A DNA stretch of 64,000 nt from an uncultured Ilumatobacter sp. (GTDB lineage Bacteria > Actinomycetota > Acidimicrobiia > Acidimicrobiales > Ilumatobacteraceae): the NCBI GenBank assembly GCA_905480335.1, contig CAJQPY010000030.1:1-64000 (forward strand), read 5' to 3'. The notes under the pieces were generated by a model. It saw only the letters and a program-made list of their open reading frames with translations. It was not told the DNA's origin and ran no database searches. Below, piece by piece: positions 55,005 to 60,241 of the stretch (position 1 is the stretch's first letter; each line of letters starts with the position of its first letter). The translations under genes and the position numbers were made by a program.

Positions 55005-55622
55005 CTACTTGGAGTAGAGCTCGACGATAAGCGATTCGCGTACCGGGATGTCGATGTGGTCGCGCTCGGGGAGGCTCCGCACCGTGACTTCCTTGCCGCC
55101 ATCGCCCTGTTCGAGCCAGCCAACGAGTGAGCGGTCAAGGGTGTCAATGTTGTGTTGGATAACGATCATCTTTGCAGCCTTCGGCGACAGCGACACGACG
55201 TCACCCTTTCGGGCGGTGTAACTCGCTATGTCGAGGCGCTTGCCATTCACGTTGATTAGTCCGTGGTTCACGAACTGGCGAGCCTGGGGACGGGTCGACG
55301 CCCAGCCGGCGCGATAGACGACGTTGTCGAGACGCTGCTCGAGCAGCCGCAGCAGGTTCTCACCGGAGGGCCCATCGAGGCGCACCGCTTCGTTGTAGGT
55401 CTTCTTGAACTGACGCTCGAGGACACCATAGATGTACTTTGCCTTCTGCTTCTCCTGCAGTTGGGCGAGGTACTCGGAGCCGGCGTTACGGCGACGGGTG
55501 CGACCGTGCGCTCCTGGGGGGAACGGACGGCGCTCAAGGATCTTGCGACCCTTCTCATTCTCGAAGATATTGGTTGACAGACGGCGCGAGATGCGCAGTT
55601 TGGGTCCGGTGTAACGAGCCAT
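55005..55622 (-). CDS. rpsD: 30S ribosomal protein S4
   Basis: 205-residue primary assembly protein with an S4 RNA-binding domain (about residues 95-155, RLDNVVYRAGWASTRPQARQ). The N-terminus MARYTGPKLRISRRL lacks the zinc Cys cluster, so this is the zinc-free form. Confidence 0.97.
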   Translation of the reverse strand: MARYTGPKLRISRRLSTNIFENEKGRKILERRPFPPGAHGRTRRRNAGSEYLAQLQEKQKAKYIYGVLERQFKKTYNEAVRLDGPSGENLLRLLEQRLDNVVYRAGWASTRPQARQFVNHGLINVNGKRLDIASYTARKGDVVSLSPKAAKMIVIQHNIDTLDRSLVGWLEQGDGGKEVTVRSLPERDHIDIPVRESLIVELYSK

Positions 55623-55638
55623 GACTCAGCGTCCTTTC

Positions 55639-56034
55639 TCAGCCGCGCCGGCGCTTGGGTGGCCGGCAACCATTGTGGGGAACAGGGGTGACATCCTTGA
55701 TCGACACAACTTCGATACCGGTCTGCTGGATGCTGCGAACGGCGGCGTCACGGCCGGAGCCGGGACCCTTGACCTGCACTTCAGCGCGGCGCAAGCCGTG
55801 CTCTTGAGCGGCGCGCGCGGCCTTCTCGGCCGCCAACTGCGCGGCAAAGGGGGTGCTTTTGCGGCTCCCCTTGTATCCGGCGACACCAGAACTCGCCCAG
55901 GCGATCACGTTGCCCTGCGGGTCGGTGATCGAAACGATCGTGTTGTTGAACGAGGACTTGATGTGGATCACACCGGTTGTGACGTTCTTCCGGTCGCGCT
56001 TACGCGGACGGCGGGTTGGGGTCTGCTTTGCCAT
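55639..56034 (-). CDS. rpsK: 30S ribosomal protein S11
   Basis: 131-residue platform protein. It has [40 protein letters not shown] and the C-terminal [11 protein letters not shown], all canonical. It is in the alpha-operon order rpsM-rpsK-rpsD-rpoA. Confidence 0.97.
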
Positions 56035-56052
56035 GTCGATCTTTCTCCCGGA

Positions 56053-56433
56053 TTACTTCCGGACGGCCTTCTTCTTGTTGGCGACGGTGCGCTTCGGTCC
56101 CTTGCGGGTGCGGGCGTTGGTGTGTGTGCGCTGCCCGCGGACGGGAAGACCCTTGCGGTGACGGACGCCCTGCAGGCAACCGATCTCAATCTTGCGCTTA
56201 ATGTCGCCCTGCACGTTGCGGCGTAGGTCGCCTTCGATGGTGAGGTTCTGATCGACGTAGCCGCGGATCTTGTTGACTTCGTCCTCAGTCAGATTCGACA
56301 CCTTCGTGTTGGGGTCAAGTTCTAGGGACTGACAGATGGTCCGAGACGTCGTGAGACCGATCCCGAAGATGTAGGTGAGAGAGACCTCCAACCGCTTCTC
56401 GCGGGGGATGTCGACGCCGGCGATACGTGCCAT
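56053..56433 (-). CDS. rpsM: 30S ribosomal protein S13
   Basis: 126-residue head protein contacting tRNA and the inter-subunit bridge. It opens [20 protein letters not shown] and contains [20 protein letters not shown] and a basic tail. It lies 41 bases downstream of rpmJ. Confidence 0.97.
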
Positions 56434-56474
56434 GTTGCTTGTCTACCTTGCTACTTCCTGGGCTGTTCCTGGGC

Positions 56475-56588
56475 TCAACCCTGCCGCTGCTTGTGGCGGG
56501 GGTTTGTGCAGATGACCATGATTCGACGATGGCGACGTATCACCTTGCAGTTGTCACACATCGGCTTGACGCTGGGACGTACTTTCAT
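56475..56588 (-). CDS. rpmJ: 50S ribosomal protein L36
   Basis: A 37-residue protein, shorter than common ORF cut-offs, read on the minus strand from ATG 56588: [20 protein letters not shown] and onward to RHKQRQG. The zinc ligands CDNC and C..PRH are intact, so this is the zinc-binding form. It lies between infA and rpsM as in most bacteria. Confidence 0.96.
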
Positions 56589-56657
56589 GGTTGCTTCTCT
56601 ACTCGTTCGTTCGGATCGTGCGTTGTTCGAATTTCGGAGACGGTCTCTCGGGCCGGC

Positions 56658-56882
56658 TCACTTGTACCGATAGGTGATGCGACCTCGGGTGAGATCGTAC
56701 GGAGTTAGTTCCACCTGGACCTTGTCGCCTGGAAGGATACGGATGTAGTGCATCCGCATCTTTCCGGAAATGTGCGCGAGTACCTCGTGTCCATTGTCGA
56801 GTTCGACCTTGAACATGGCATTCGGCAGCGATTCGAGGATTTTACCCTCGAGTACAATCGCATCTTCCTTTGGCTTGGGCAG
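56658..56882 (-). CDS. infA: translation initiation factor IF-1, apparent CTG start
   Basis: Small OB-fold factor that blocks the ribosomal A site during initiation. 74 residues, with [37 protein letters not shown] and ending [11 protein letters not shown], all canonical. In this frame no ATG, GTG or TTG exists between the upstream in-frame TGA and the conserved AIVLEG core. The only sensible start is CTG at 56882, preceded by AGGAG six bases away, giving the expected [14 protein letters not shown]-terminus and normal length. The gap to rpmJ is 69 bases. Confidence 0.93.
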
Positions 56883-56994
56883 GGGATTCTCCTCACCTGA
56901 TCGTGCTCACCGCCTCGACAGAGGCCTCTGCTGCTAGCGATGAGTTCGGTTTTCACTGTTTTGGCGGATTGGGATCGAACGGCATAACTCGACC

Positions 56995-57012
56995 CGGTCT
57001 GCGAACAGACCG
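56995..57012 (-). terminator. TTCG-loop hairpin between tetR and infA
   Basis: On the minus strand CGGTCTG-TTCG-CAGACCG is a perfect 7-bp stem with a UUCG tetraloop, 60 bases past the tetR stop. No T-tract follows, so termination is only suggested. The infA promoter would lie between here and 56893. Confidence 0.45.
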
Positions 57013-57072
57013 AAAAACGATGCTAACGGTCGATCGGCGCGACTCCACGCGCGAAATCCCCAGCGACGTGAG

Positions 57073-57759
57073 TCACGCGTGCTGCGCCGGCAAACTCGAC
57101 TTCGGTACGGGACGAACCAGGTCACCCCGTACGACCGCCATCACGCTGTCGATGGCGCAGCGCTGCCGCTGAAGCGAATGGCTCGCTCCGTCAGTGAGGC
57201 CAACGAGGATCAGCCGAATGAATTCCTGGAGCAGTGCAGCATCCTGACGACGCACCTCACCGGACGCGATTCCCGCTTCGACGATTCCCAGGAAAAACCG
57301 CTCGCGATCCGTCATAGCTGCGCCGAGGGATTCGCCGATTTCGGGGTGTCGACGGGTGTCGGCGCGCACCGCCCCGACAAATTTGGTCAACGACGGATCC
57401 TCGCGGTTCATATCGTGTGCCGCGTTAAGCACCGCCTCGAGCTTGCCGATGAAGGTCTCCTGCGACAATTCCGCCTCCTGGAAGCGGCCGTAAATGCGAC
57501 CCTGCATATCGCGGTGGACCTCGATATAGAGGTCAAGCTTTGACTCCACGTAGTGGTAGAGAGCTCCGGTGGTCACCCCCGCCGCAGCGGCCAAGTCCTT
57601 GTTCGTCACCGAGCCGTAGCCGCGCTCACCGAAAAGATTGCGGGCACCGCTCAAGATCGCCTCGCGCGTCTCGGACGACTTCGTGTCAGGTGGCCGGCCA
57701 CGTCGTCGTGGTGCCTCATTGTGTTGTGCCTCCACCCCTGCGAGTATGACGGACGGCAC
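57073..57759 (-). CDS. TetR-family transcriptional regulator
   Basis: 228-residue repressor-type regulator. The N-terminal helix-turn-helix (about residues 22-75) reads AREAILSGARNLFGERGY-like, followed by TNKDLAAAAGVTTGALYHYV. The C-terminal ligand-binding domain is helical with a variable tail. The start is GTG at 57759, because GGAGGA lies seven bases upstream; GTG at 57735 is possible. It lies 35 bases after the DCC-type gene, in the slot between adk and infA where map is usually found. Confidence 0.85.
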   Translation of the reverse strand: MPSVILAGVEAQHNEAPRRRGRPPDTKSSETREAILSGARNLFGERGYGSVTNKDLAAAAGVTTGALYHYVESKLDLYIEVHRDMQGRIYGRFQEAELSQETFIGKLEAVLNAAHDMNREDPSLTKFVGAVRADTRRHPEIGESLGAAMTDRERFFLGIVEAGIASGEVRRQDAALLQEFIRLILVGLTDGASHSLQRQRCAIDSVMAVVRGDLVRPVPKSSLPAQHA

Positions 57760-57794
57760 ATCTCTTCCTCCCAGCGGACGGACCGAGCGAATCG

Positions 57795-58193
57795 TCACCT
57801 CGGCTCGTGCGACGTTGACGCAACGCACTCACCAGGATGAGCGACGCACCAAGGGGTCTCTCCTGGCAGGCGATGCCTATTCGCCGCAAACCATCCGTAG
57901 ATCTGGTCAAGTAACCATGAAACGCCAGGAAGTCGAAATGGCCACAACGGAATCCTGGAGTTCCAGGCGACAGCGAGCATCAGTGCGATACCTCGCGGCC
58001 CTCCCGCTGCGGAGTCGCCTGCAACGGTCCACACCGCTTGGTCAGTCTGAGCTTGACTCAAACCAGTCCGTTCCCAGATGCCGTGCGCCTGTGCTGCGAC
58101 GACATCGACGCGCTGCCTGCGGTCCAACTTGTCGAGCCACCTGGCCGAACGGGTACAGAAGCCTCAATAGCCGTCGAAGACAAGAGTGGCCAT
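57795..58193 (-). CDS. DCC-family thiol-disulfide oxidoreductase with in-frame TGA at the redox Cys (candidate selenoprotein)
   Basis: Reading from ATG 58193 through one in-frame TGA (58166-58164, codon 10) gives an unbroken 132-residue DUF393/DCC protein. It opens MATLVFDGY-X-GFCTRSARW, where the family has DGxCGFC. The TGA occupies exactly the first redox cysteine and the second, Cys13, is kept. The family C-terminal part LPLWPFRLPGV-type segment followed by YGWFAANRHRLPG and two late Cys is intact up to the TGA stop at 57797-57795. A hairpin with a GGU loop lies 15 bases after the TGA. Selenocysteine insertion is the favoured reading. Alternatives are a nonsense mutation, or initiation at the downstream TTG 58127 giving an inactive fragment. 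It is co-directional with adk (46-base gap). Confidence 0.75.
58132..58148 (-). promoter_or_regulatory. SECIS-like hairpin downstream of the in-frame TGA
   Basis: On the minus strand TCGGCC (58148-58143) pairs with GGC-T-CGA (58138-58132 including G58138) around the loop AGGT (58142-58139), leaving one bulged U. The apical GGU starts 22 nucleotides after the TGA. Bacterial SECIS elements have a GU-bearing apical loop 16-37 nucleotides after the UGA and, in E. coli fdhF, a bulged U in the upper stem. Here the bulge is on the 3' side in my folding. This is a hand folding, not a computed one. Confidence 0.5.
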
Positions 58194-58239
58194 TGTTGGG
58201 CCTGTTTCGGGCAACGCGCTAGATCCAGTCACCGTCTAC

Positions 58240-58905
58240 TCACACGCGACTTTGCTCGACGGCCTGCACGAGCCGCTCAAACACTGCGTCGGGGTGTCCG
58301 ATCCCGTTGACCACTGAGAGTTGGTTCTGATCGCCGTAGTGACGAATTAGCGGAAAGGTCTGCTCTTCGTAAATGTCGAGACGACGGTTGACCGAATCGG
58401 GTGTGTCATCGTCGCGTTGCATGACGTCACCACCACACACATCACAGATCCAGGGGCTTGGGTCGTTGCCACTCGCCGTGTAGTTGGTGCCGCAGTCCCG
58501 ACAGACACGACGCGAGGAGATCCGCTCCAGAACGATCTCGCGAGGAACGTCGAGATCGAGGACAACATCGATCGGCTTCCCGATTTCAAAGGTGATCTCG
58601 TCGAGCGCGTCCGCCTGCTCGATCGTGCGCGGGAACCCGTCGAGGATGTAGCCGCGCGTGTCTGCGTCGGCAGCCTTCAACCGATTACGGACGATCCCGA
58701 TCATGATGTCGTCAGACACCAGGCCGCCGGCATCCATGACCTTCTTCGCCTCGATACCGAGCGGGGTACCCTCGCGCACCGCTGACCGCAGCATGTCTCC
58801 AGTGGAGATGTGCGGCACGACGAAGTGGCGGCTGAGGCGCACGCACTGCGTCCCCTTTCCGGCACCCTGTCGCCCGAGGATGATGAGGCGGGCGCCCGGG
58901 ATCAT
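58240..58905 (-). CDS. adk: adenylate kinase
   Basis: Interconverts ATP + AMP and 2 ADP. 221 residues from ATG 58905. The P-loop is GRQGAGKGT (residues 11-19), and DGFPRT is the AMP-site motif. The lid has four zinc ligands, CRDCGTNY and WICDVCGG. Standard long form. It lies 10 bases after secY; the usual next gene, map, is missing and a DCC-type gene and tetR follow. Confidence 0.96.
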   Translation of the reverse strand: MIPGARLIILGRQGAGKGTQCVRLSRHFVVPHISTGDMLRSAVREGTPLGIEAKKVMDAGGLVSDDIMIGIVRNRLKAADADTRGYILDGFPRTIEQADALDEITFEIGKPIDVVLDLDVPREIVLERISSRRVCRDCGTNYTASGNDPSPWICDVCGGDVMQRDDDTPDSVNRRLDIYEEQTFPLIRHYGDQNQLSVVNGIGHPDAVFERLVQAVEQSRV

Positions 58906-58915
58906 GGGCTGCGGC

Positions 58916-60241
58916 CTACTTGAGGAAGCCCTCATAATTGCGCAACGTCAGCTGGCTGTCGATCTGACGCATTAATTCAAGCGCCACGCCGACAGAGATC
59001 AGAACGCTCGTGCCGGCGAACCCGAAGGTATTGATGCCCGCCGCCAGGAGTAGCAAGTACGGCAGGACCGCAATGACAGCGATGAAGACAGCACCAGGCA
59101 ACGTGATGCGGTTAACGGCTTTGGCGAGGTACTTCTCCGTCTGCGGTCCGGGGCGCACTCCCGGGATGAACCCGCCCTGCTTGCGGAGCTGATCAGCCTG
59201 GCGAACCGGGTCGAACGCAATCGAGTTGTAAAAATAGGCGAATGCCACGATCAGCAGTGCGAAAATGGTGATGTAGACGAGGTTGGACGGATTAACGATG
59301 TACTCGGTGATCCAGCTCTGCACGCCCGAGCGCCAGCTGTCGGGATCAGCACCACCGAGCACGTTGGAGAAGATCACCGGAAGCAACAGGATCGAACTCG
59401 CGAAGATGATCGGGATCACGCCGGACTGATTCACCTTGAGGGGGATGTATGTGTTCTGACCGCCCATCATCCGGCGGCCGACCACACGTTTGGCAAACTG
59501 CACCGGTATTCGCCGCTGGCCAAGTTCGACAAACACGACGGCCACCACGATGCCGACCGTGAGCAGAATCATGGCGACGAACCAAAACTCCTTGTTGAGC
59601 TGGAGGATTCCCCAGAAACCGCCGGGCAGTGAGGCAACCACGGACGCAAAGATGATCATCGACATGCCGTTACCGATACCGCGTTGGGAGATCAGTTCAC
59701 CGAGCCACATCAGAACGGCAGTCCCGGCGACGAGCGTCGGGATGATCAGGTACCCCCGCGGCCAGATGCCACCGGATAGCAGGGGCACGTTCGTCGGTGG
59801 ACCGGAGGTAAAGAATGCCTGCCCCTGTCCGGTCCCGAAGATGAAGACGAGGCCGGTCGCCTGCAGCGTGGCCAGTCCGATTGTCACGTACCGCGTGTAC
59901 TGCGTGATCTTGCGCTGTCCGACGGCGCCCTCCTGCTGAAGTTGCTCGAGCTTGGGGATGACGACACCCAAGACCTGCATGATGATGCTCGCGGTGATGT
60001 AGGGCATGATGCCCAGCGCAAAGATCGAGAACGATTCAAAGGCGCCGCCGGAGAAAAGATTCAGGAAGCCCAGCGCCCCTTGCTGGTCGGCAGAGGCCCG
60101 GAGCTGCTCAATCGCGATCGGGTCGACTCCGGGGACCCGGATGGCCACGCCCAGACGGTATACGGCCACCATCAAGACAACAAACAGGAGTTTGTTTCGA
60201 AGGTCGCTGATTTTGAAGACGTTCAGCAGGTTGGAGAGCAT
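58916..60241 (-). CDS. secY: protein translocase subunit SecY
   Basis: Central channel of the Sec translocase, 441 residues with ten membrane helices. The plug/TM2 region GGAFESFSIFALGIMPYITA is present, and the cytoplasmic-loop residues FAKRVVGRRMMGGQNTYIPL. The TM7 NQSGVIPIIFA segment is canonical. It is separated from rplO by 471 bases, more than usual within this operon. Confidence 0.97.
   Translation of the reverse strand: MLSNLLNVFKISDLRNKLLFVVLMVAVYRLGVAIRVPGVDPIAIEQLRASADQQGALGFLNLFSGGAFESFSIFALGIMPYITASIIMQVLGVVIPKLEQLQQEGAVGQRKITQYTRYVTIGLATLQATGLVFIFGTGQGQAFFTSGPPTNVPLLSGGIWPRGYLIIPTLVAGTAVLMWLGELISQRGIGNGMSMIIFASVVASLPGGFWGILQLNKEFWFVAMILLTVGIVVAVVFVELGQRRIPVQFAKRVVGRRMMGGQNTYIPLKVNQSGVIPIIFASSILLLPVIFSNVLGGADPDSWRSGVQSWITEYIVNPSNLVYITIFALLIVAFAYFYNSIAFDPVRQADQLRKQGGFIPGVRPGPQTEKYLAKAVNRITLPGAVFIAVIAVLPYLLLLAAGINTFGFAGTSVLISVGVALELMRQIDSQLTLRNYEGFLK

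Follow-up and report, generated by a model that had tools for sequence, protein, structure and literature searches.

A predicted UxxC selenoprotein of the DCC1-like (PF04134) family in Ilumatobacter, with TGA-containing relatives in a Rubrobacter-type lineage

The DCC1-like thiol-disulfide oxidoreductases form the family PF04134, whose older name is DUF393, and their redox motif is DxxCxxC. Selenoproteins with related motifs are described outside this family. Specifically, a catalogue from 2026 (PMC13188914) covers, in its Table 1, 119 prokaryotic selenoprotein families or subfamilies, including UxxC proteins of the thioredoxin (Trx), glutaredoxin (Grx), DsbA/DsbG-like and thiol-disulfide isomerase-like types, and lists the doubly substituted motif UxxU for a Prx-like oxidoreductase, the metal-binding protein NF041115 and the FmdB family. 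None of the rows of that table has an entry for PF04134, DUF393 or DCC; moreover, DCC, DUF393 and COG3011 are absent from the main text of PMC13188914, PMC2398784, PMC9312934 and PMC1088965, and DCC from the main text of PMC12013277 and PMC1794560. A full-text search, with subscription papers, preprints and supplements outside its scope, returned no literature linking a selenoprotein with a DCC thiol-disulfide oxidoreductase, DUF393 or PF04134; Ilumatobacter and selenocysteine occur together in one soil metaproteomics paper, and the DCC family as thiol-disulfide oxidoreductases in two papers.

The locus described here lies in a stretch of 64,000 nucleotides (the window) on contig C30 of an uncultured Ilumatobacter genome (G000; 2,950,962 bases in 51 contigs, 94% complete). 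The window gene is best read as coding for a UxxC selenoprotein of the DCC1-like family, in which an internal UGA is decoded by SelB with the help of a hairpin on its 3' side and C26 acts as the resolving residue; the probability of this reading, with all of its parts, is put at roughly 0.93. The features established, as far as sequence comparison can establish them, are the conserved TGA, the machinery for selenocysteine (Sec), a frame that is both open and constrained, the Sec/Cys exchange and the structured RNA in a second lineage (f84).

The reading frame and its surroundings

On the minus strand, 58193-57795 translates as MATLVFDGY-TGA-GFCTRSARW..., and its sole internal stop is a TGA that replaces the first Cys of DGxCGFC, giving the motif DGYUGFC, after which 122 codons remain open up to a terminal TGA (Table 1). 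With the TGA taken as a residue, the frame matches PF04134 over the whole domain (profile positions 1-112 of 113, E 1.1e-15, 59.3 bits vs a cut-off of 27.8), and this is the only match of the family in the genome. The initial annotation had proposed an intact DUF393/DCC oxidoreductase frame whose only in-frame TGA sits on the N-terminal catalytic Cys, and translation and profile search bear this out. Its start codon, ATG 58193, fares less well: in the N-terminal alignment of seven homologues the similarity extends upstream of the ATG (SALPETGPT / GQLPDRRPE...), and because of this the GTG of Table 1 is, on the evidence of the alignment, the more likely start, with no obvious ribosome-binding site seen by eye. 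Both the DCC gene and adk terminate at TGA, and therefore UGA is not globally reassigned, as the same annotation had argued.

Table 1. Features of the DCC1-like locus (positions in the window)
Feature	Position	Strand	Evidence or remark
Predicted selenoprotein gene, DCC1-like thiol-disulfide oxidoreductase	57795..58232	-	likely start GTG 58232-58230; PF04134; N-terminal alignment
In-frame TGA, predicted Sec (U of UxxC)	58164..58166	-	same codon TGA in L094, L097, L098, L104 and 12 f84 loci; Cys in other matches inspected
Resolving Cys codon (C of UxxC; C26), putative	58155..58157	-	TGA in 10/12 f84 relatives
SECIS-like hairpin UCG-GCC-[AGGU]-GGC-U-CGA	58132..58148	-	apical loop 58142-58139, 21 nt after TGA; weak in window gene
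C129 codon, first Cys of C-terminal C(x6)C pair	57846..57848	-	invariant in 8 sequences of A1
C136 codon, second Cys of C-terminal pair	57825..57827	-	invariant in 8 sequences of A1
TGA stop codon of the DCC gene	57795..57797	-	translation
adk (adenylate kinase)	58240..58935	-	PF00406 E 3.7e-50; lies directly ahead of GTG 58232
ORF of a TetR-type regulator, uncertain start, overlapping the DCC gene end	57073..57828	-	PF00440 E 6.2e-14; downstream neighbour

A motif search places an adk-type ORF upstream of the DCC gene in eight of the nine examined loci of the window's family (the window, L017, L094-L098 and L104), the sole exception being L100 on a short contig, and finds no adk motif within about 2 kb in any of the 15 other loci examined. 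Inspection by eye of 55005-60241, without a family search, puts the DCC and TetR genes between adk and ribosomal-protein-like ORFs, and the DCC gene apparently sits inside a secY-adk ribosomal protein cluster. In L100, L117 and L119, the Cys DCC gene is directly preceded by an ORF with a similar end of the type ...GI.A.M.I.FRY..SG, which is perhaps a conserved membrane partner.

Distribution of TGA and Cys at the redox codon

Six of the ten genomes of the genus carry a DCC orthologue. The redox codon is TGA in four of them, namely the window genome, Ilumatobacteraceae Ww598 (G003, locus L104), uncultured Ilumatobacter ERR2206764_bin.78 (G004, L097) and uncultured Ilumatobacter FRAM18_bin014 (G006, L094), and a Cys codon in G001 and G007, the latter keeping Cys although Sec genes are present; no orthologue was found in the other four, one of which (G008) is 99% complete. 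With Ilumatobacter sp. SAT196 (L098), TGA occupies exactly the redox codon in five genomes, the window's and four named Ilumatobacter or Ilumatobacteraceae. Inspection of all 25 matches of the search that identified these orthologues gave four TGA and 21 Cys. At the level of the family, 12 of 221 genomes match at E 1e-15 or better, with TGA confined to the four genomes G000, G003, G004 and G006 and with Cys at the motif in loci L090-L093; at the level of the class, five of 395 match at E 1e-20 or better, and only the window genome has TGA. A scan of named genomes confirmed 451 loci, the best 80 of which contain TGA in four cases and TGC or TGT in 76; the scan is no unbiased census, one of its two search patterns having required Cys, and the codon count was made with the pattern that permits any residue at the motif position. 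The stops in L020/L176, L025, L030, L032, L033 and L178 were rejected as Sec candidates: the motif has Cys and the stop lies near the end of the match.

A second lineage emerges from a scan of 396 Actinomycetota genomes, 41 of which have a DCC match at E 1e-12 or better; the 30 loci returned comprise 17 with Cys and 13 with TGA, the latter being the window's and those of f84, a count that leaves out 12 further match rows. In the family labelled f84, the first redox Cys is replaced by TGA in all 12 matching genomes (f84 genomes without a match are not counted), and in ten of these (L182-L191) the second redox Cys is TGA as well, which gives UxxU genes whose two in-frame TGAs are spaced by 9 nt; L179 and L181 keep the second Cys. 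Both forms match PF04134 (7.3e-13 and 1.9e-13). Four of the 12 genes (L179, L181, L187, L189) end with TGA, and UGA is therefore still a stop in f84. The name "Rubrobacter family" used for this group rests on its only identified member, G816, a genome of two contigs in which the first 20 kb of the 263,859-base contig match the plasmid NZ_CP045122.1 of Rubrobacter marinus at 100% identity.

These occurrences bear on the alternative, raised by the initial annotation itself, that a base-call error produced the TGA. Starting from a DCC gene with Cys, a single change of TGC or TGT would indeed suffice, whether as a sequencing or assembly error or as a nonsense mutation of recent date, and the window codon, from an assembly in 51 contigs, is known here only as assembled sequence; both are very unlikely, because TGA recurs at this codon in 12 f84 genomes, the two-contig R. 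marinus among them, and in four further Ilumatobacter-type assemblies. Moreover, the terminal branch of the window protein (0.36) is similar to that of its nearest Cys orthologue, L017 (0.40), and so gives no sign of decay. The placement of the TGA is not due to chance, given its recurrence at this codon in both lineages. Relatives also preserve the frame downstream of it and form Sec/Cys pairs at the codon.

Selenocysteine machinery and the RNA downstream of the UGA

All four components of Sec decoding named in the initial annotation (selA, selB, selD and tRNA-Sec) are present in the window genome, each above its curated cut-off. Specifically, selA (C6:41969-43135, 398.8 bits) adjoins selB (C6:43162-44223, 275.4 bits vs a cut-off of 242.25), tRNA-Sec scores 66.5 bits against a gathering score of 47 and is called tRNA-SeC with anticodon tca by ARAGORN, and selD (C31:56738-57658, L082, 365.7 bits) contains one internal TGA, so that SelD, with the motif SHGAG-U-GCK, is predicted to be a second selenoprotein of this genome. 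A GGCGCAC-GUC-GUGCGCC hairpin is seen about 33 nt after the UGA of selD. Only matches over the cut-offs were counted, weaker ones being widespread in control genomes; for tRNA-Sec, all 14 controls gave a match and five exceeded the cut-off. With the window genome included, selA passes in 10/10 genus genomes, tRNA-Sec in 9/10 and selD in 9/10, each selD having one internal TGA; selB passes in nine of 11 relatives (nine genus and two family genomes), the two matches below the cut-off (G004 and G005) both ending at contig ends. Because these matches exceed their cut-offs, the genus is taken, by homology, to decode Sec; the genome of L098 lies outside these counts. In R. marinus, selA, selB and tRNA-Sec (tca) are clustered at L274:15763-18866, and selD was not found in the searched part of the chromosome, about 2 of 4.16 Mb; this is the whole of the f84 evidence on machinery, the other 11 genomes lying outside the search. 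For R. xylanophilus, tRNA-Sec is described (PMC5330540) and five selenoproteins are counted, SelD among them by name (PMC1794560), and it is not excluded that the DCC gene is already among those five under another name.

Decoding of the UGA without selenium, by readthrough or by reassignment to Cys or Trp, would also account for a frame that is open on both sides of the TGA. The use of TGA as a stop by the DCC gene and adk speaks against global reassignment, and a complete Sec machinery, a selD with the same kind of TGA and the restriction of the relatives' internal TGAs to redox Cys positions leave this explanation very little credence. The inference of a UxxC selenoprotein is supported by that machinery together with the conserved TGA and the Sec/Cys pairs. 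In the selenoprotein reading, SelB with Sec-tRNA(Sec) would decode the UGA as selenocysteine, and a hairpin 3' of it, within the coding sequence, would aid the decoding.

The published bacterial SECIS model calls for a minimum free energy (MFE) of -7.5 or lower and for an apical loop of 3-9 nt that has G within its first two positions and lies 16-37 nt downstream of the UGA (PMC13188914). In f84, the bases 12-54 from the first UGA have a mean MFE of -21.81 vs -15.55 (sd 0.89) for a null of 300 synonymous within-gene codon shuffles, and the alignment folds at -12.31 vs -0.20 for shuffles (sd 0.52, minimum -3.73). Taken gene by gene, p<0.05 is reached by seven of 12 f84 genes, 2/72 Cys homologues outside the window's family and 0/4 within it, with mean z of -1.98, 0.07 and -0.60, respectively; the rows are related, so the group differences overstate independence. 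A bulge interrupts the f84 hairpin at base 22, pair 20-41 shows compensatory change between G-C (8 of 12) and C-G (3 of 12), and the RNA signal predicted for this family is convincing.

In Ilumatobacter the signal is less clear. The five Ilumatobacter-type Sec genes fold no better than their synonymous shuffles (mean z -0.32, none at p<0.05), the four Cys relatives lying slightly below them, and the energy constrained to the SECIS model likewise reaches p<0.05 in none of the five and in one of four Cys genes (G024, 0.04); the latter test has low power, as only 4/9 selD positive controls pass it. L094, L097, L098 and L104 share a hairpin of the form GCG-(Y)-NCGN-[UGGAU]-NCGN-CGY with a bulge at base 22, as in f84, a loop UGGAU at 24 nt and energies of -7.4 to -10.9. 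All seven pairs form in each of the four genes, with a chance under synonymous codon choice of 0.023-0.037 per gene, and pairing persists where bases differ, the loop-closing pair being C-G, C-G, G-C and U-A and the lowest upper pair U-G, U-A, C-G and C-G. The structure was picked from the same sequences on which it was scored, and the Cys orthologue L095 forms six of the seven pairs, so that the predicted signal in these four genes is suggestive. The window gene makes only two of the seven and has a different, weaker hairpin of its own, in which all six pairs form (chance under synonymous codons 0.15) and which has a minimal energy of -6.4 kcal/mol, reaching -10.7 only with flanks. A SECIS in the window gene, for which the initial annotation had made no claim, is thus not demonstrated and remains an inference, this hairpin being the weakest part of the evidence.

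Constraint, chemistry and comparison with known selenoproteins

From the codon after the TGA onward, the closest Sec pair, L094-L097, has a dN of 0.19 and a dS of 0.84 (ratio 0.22, 119 codons), and the seven other Sec pairs with finite dS give ratios of 0.12-0.21, most dS values being near saturation; in the remaining two of the ten pairs, both involving the window, dS is saturated. Pairs with the Cys genes L017 or L095 range from 0.13 to 0.60 where finite. Judged by these ratios, the frame downstream of the TGA is under purifying selection. This also weighs on the possibility that the UGA is a true stop, with the downstream part either made from an internal TTG or left as a pseudogene remnant: a TTG-start ORF does exist (110 aa, 58127-57795) and just passes the PF04134 cut-off (28.6 vs 27.8 bits), yet its product would lack the redox motif, the two flanks of the UGA are conserved together (in four of the five genomes, and over a shorter stretch in all five), and the constraint holds in the eight of ten Sec pairs with estimable dS. 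The probability left to it is negligible.

On a protein tree of 58 rows, which leaves out for size 35 further, mainly mycobacterial rows, the 17 Sec rows are not one clade, and the best tree requires a minimum of five Sec/Cys changes, a minimum of two being forced by well-supported branches; L164, with fewer than 100 aa after its internal stop, was left out of both trees. The rows of the window's family do not separate into Sec and Cys groups, and the window row is the first to branch in the genus with weak support (98/70 on one tree, 80/19 on the other). The simplest reading of these topologies is that Ilumatobacter and the Rubrobacter family changed from Cys to Sec separately, that Ilumatobacter saw further exchange, and that the changes fell in lineages already decoding Sec. 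The trees also leave room for a single ancient Sec origin followed by many losses, and gain and loss in Ilumatobacter remain unresolved.

The AlphaFold2 model of A1, computed with Cys (mean pLDDT 89.5, pTM 0.84), has a strand at 15-19 and a helix at 24-36, which places U23-x-x-C26 where the first helix begins. Foldseek similarity is weak, the best hit being an SspA (E 0.018), followed by Grx, GST and Trx folds, and a PDB sequence search with A1 found no relative (best E 0.079). Sec would take the place of the attacking Cys in a thioredoxin-like beta-alpha-beta arrangement, the probable reaction being a thiol-disulfide exchange in which Sec attacks and C26 would resolve the selenenyl-sulfide. 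The insertion of Sec itself is inferred, as are the catalytic direction, the substrate and the electron donor. Eight aligned sequences, with Sec counted as Cys, share 26 invariant columns, including C26 and C129/C136; the latter pair may relay electrons, an inference from conservation alone. The invariant PWCxxHxxxC at 57825-57848 is a candidate second redox site.

If correct, these predictions extend the selenoproteome by an oxidoreductase family that has received little study, and the natural Sec/Cys pairs within one genus make the benefit of Sec over Cys directly testable in one enzyme. The UxxU relatives raise the question of whether one SECIS hairpin can drive Sec insertion at two UGAs 9 nt apart, as is possibly the case in f84. 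Annotation that takes every TGA as a stop would truncate such proteins at the redox motif, and for this reason the genes are probably misannotated, an inference with no annotation of the loci behind it. The DCC1-like proteins are most likely a new selenoprotein family, and the change from Cys that gave rise to it probably took place more than once. The more demanding proposition combines an unpublished family, at least two origins from Cys within Actinomycetota, in Ilumatobacter and in the Rubrobacter family, and, for the Rubrobacter family, a single SECIS that serves both UGAs of a diselenide-capable UxxU; as a whole, it is held with reasonable confidence.

Compared with PF04134 as described, the window protein agrees in its near full-length profile match and in the DGx[C/U]GFC motif, and differs in that the first redox Cys is a predicted Sec, both being predicted Sec in ten of the 12 f84 genes. 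With the UxxC selenoproteins (Trx, Grx, DsbA/DsbG-like and thiol-disulfide isomerase-like; PMC13188914, Table 1) it shares Sec at the N-terminal position of CxxC and the common occurrence of Cys homologues; unlike these, it belongs to another Pfam family and stays below the cut-off of every NCBIfam model, and its structural similarity to them is weak. Lastly, the two Sec residues of most f84 proteins resemble those of the UxxU selenoproteins (Prx-like, NF041115 and FmdB), whereas the domain identifiers are different and a single Sec is predicted for the window protein.
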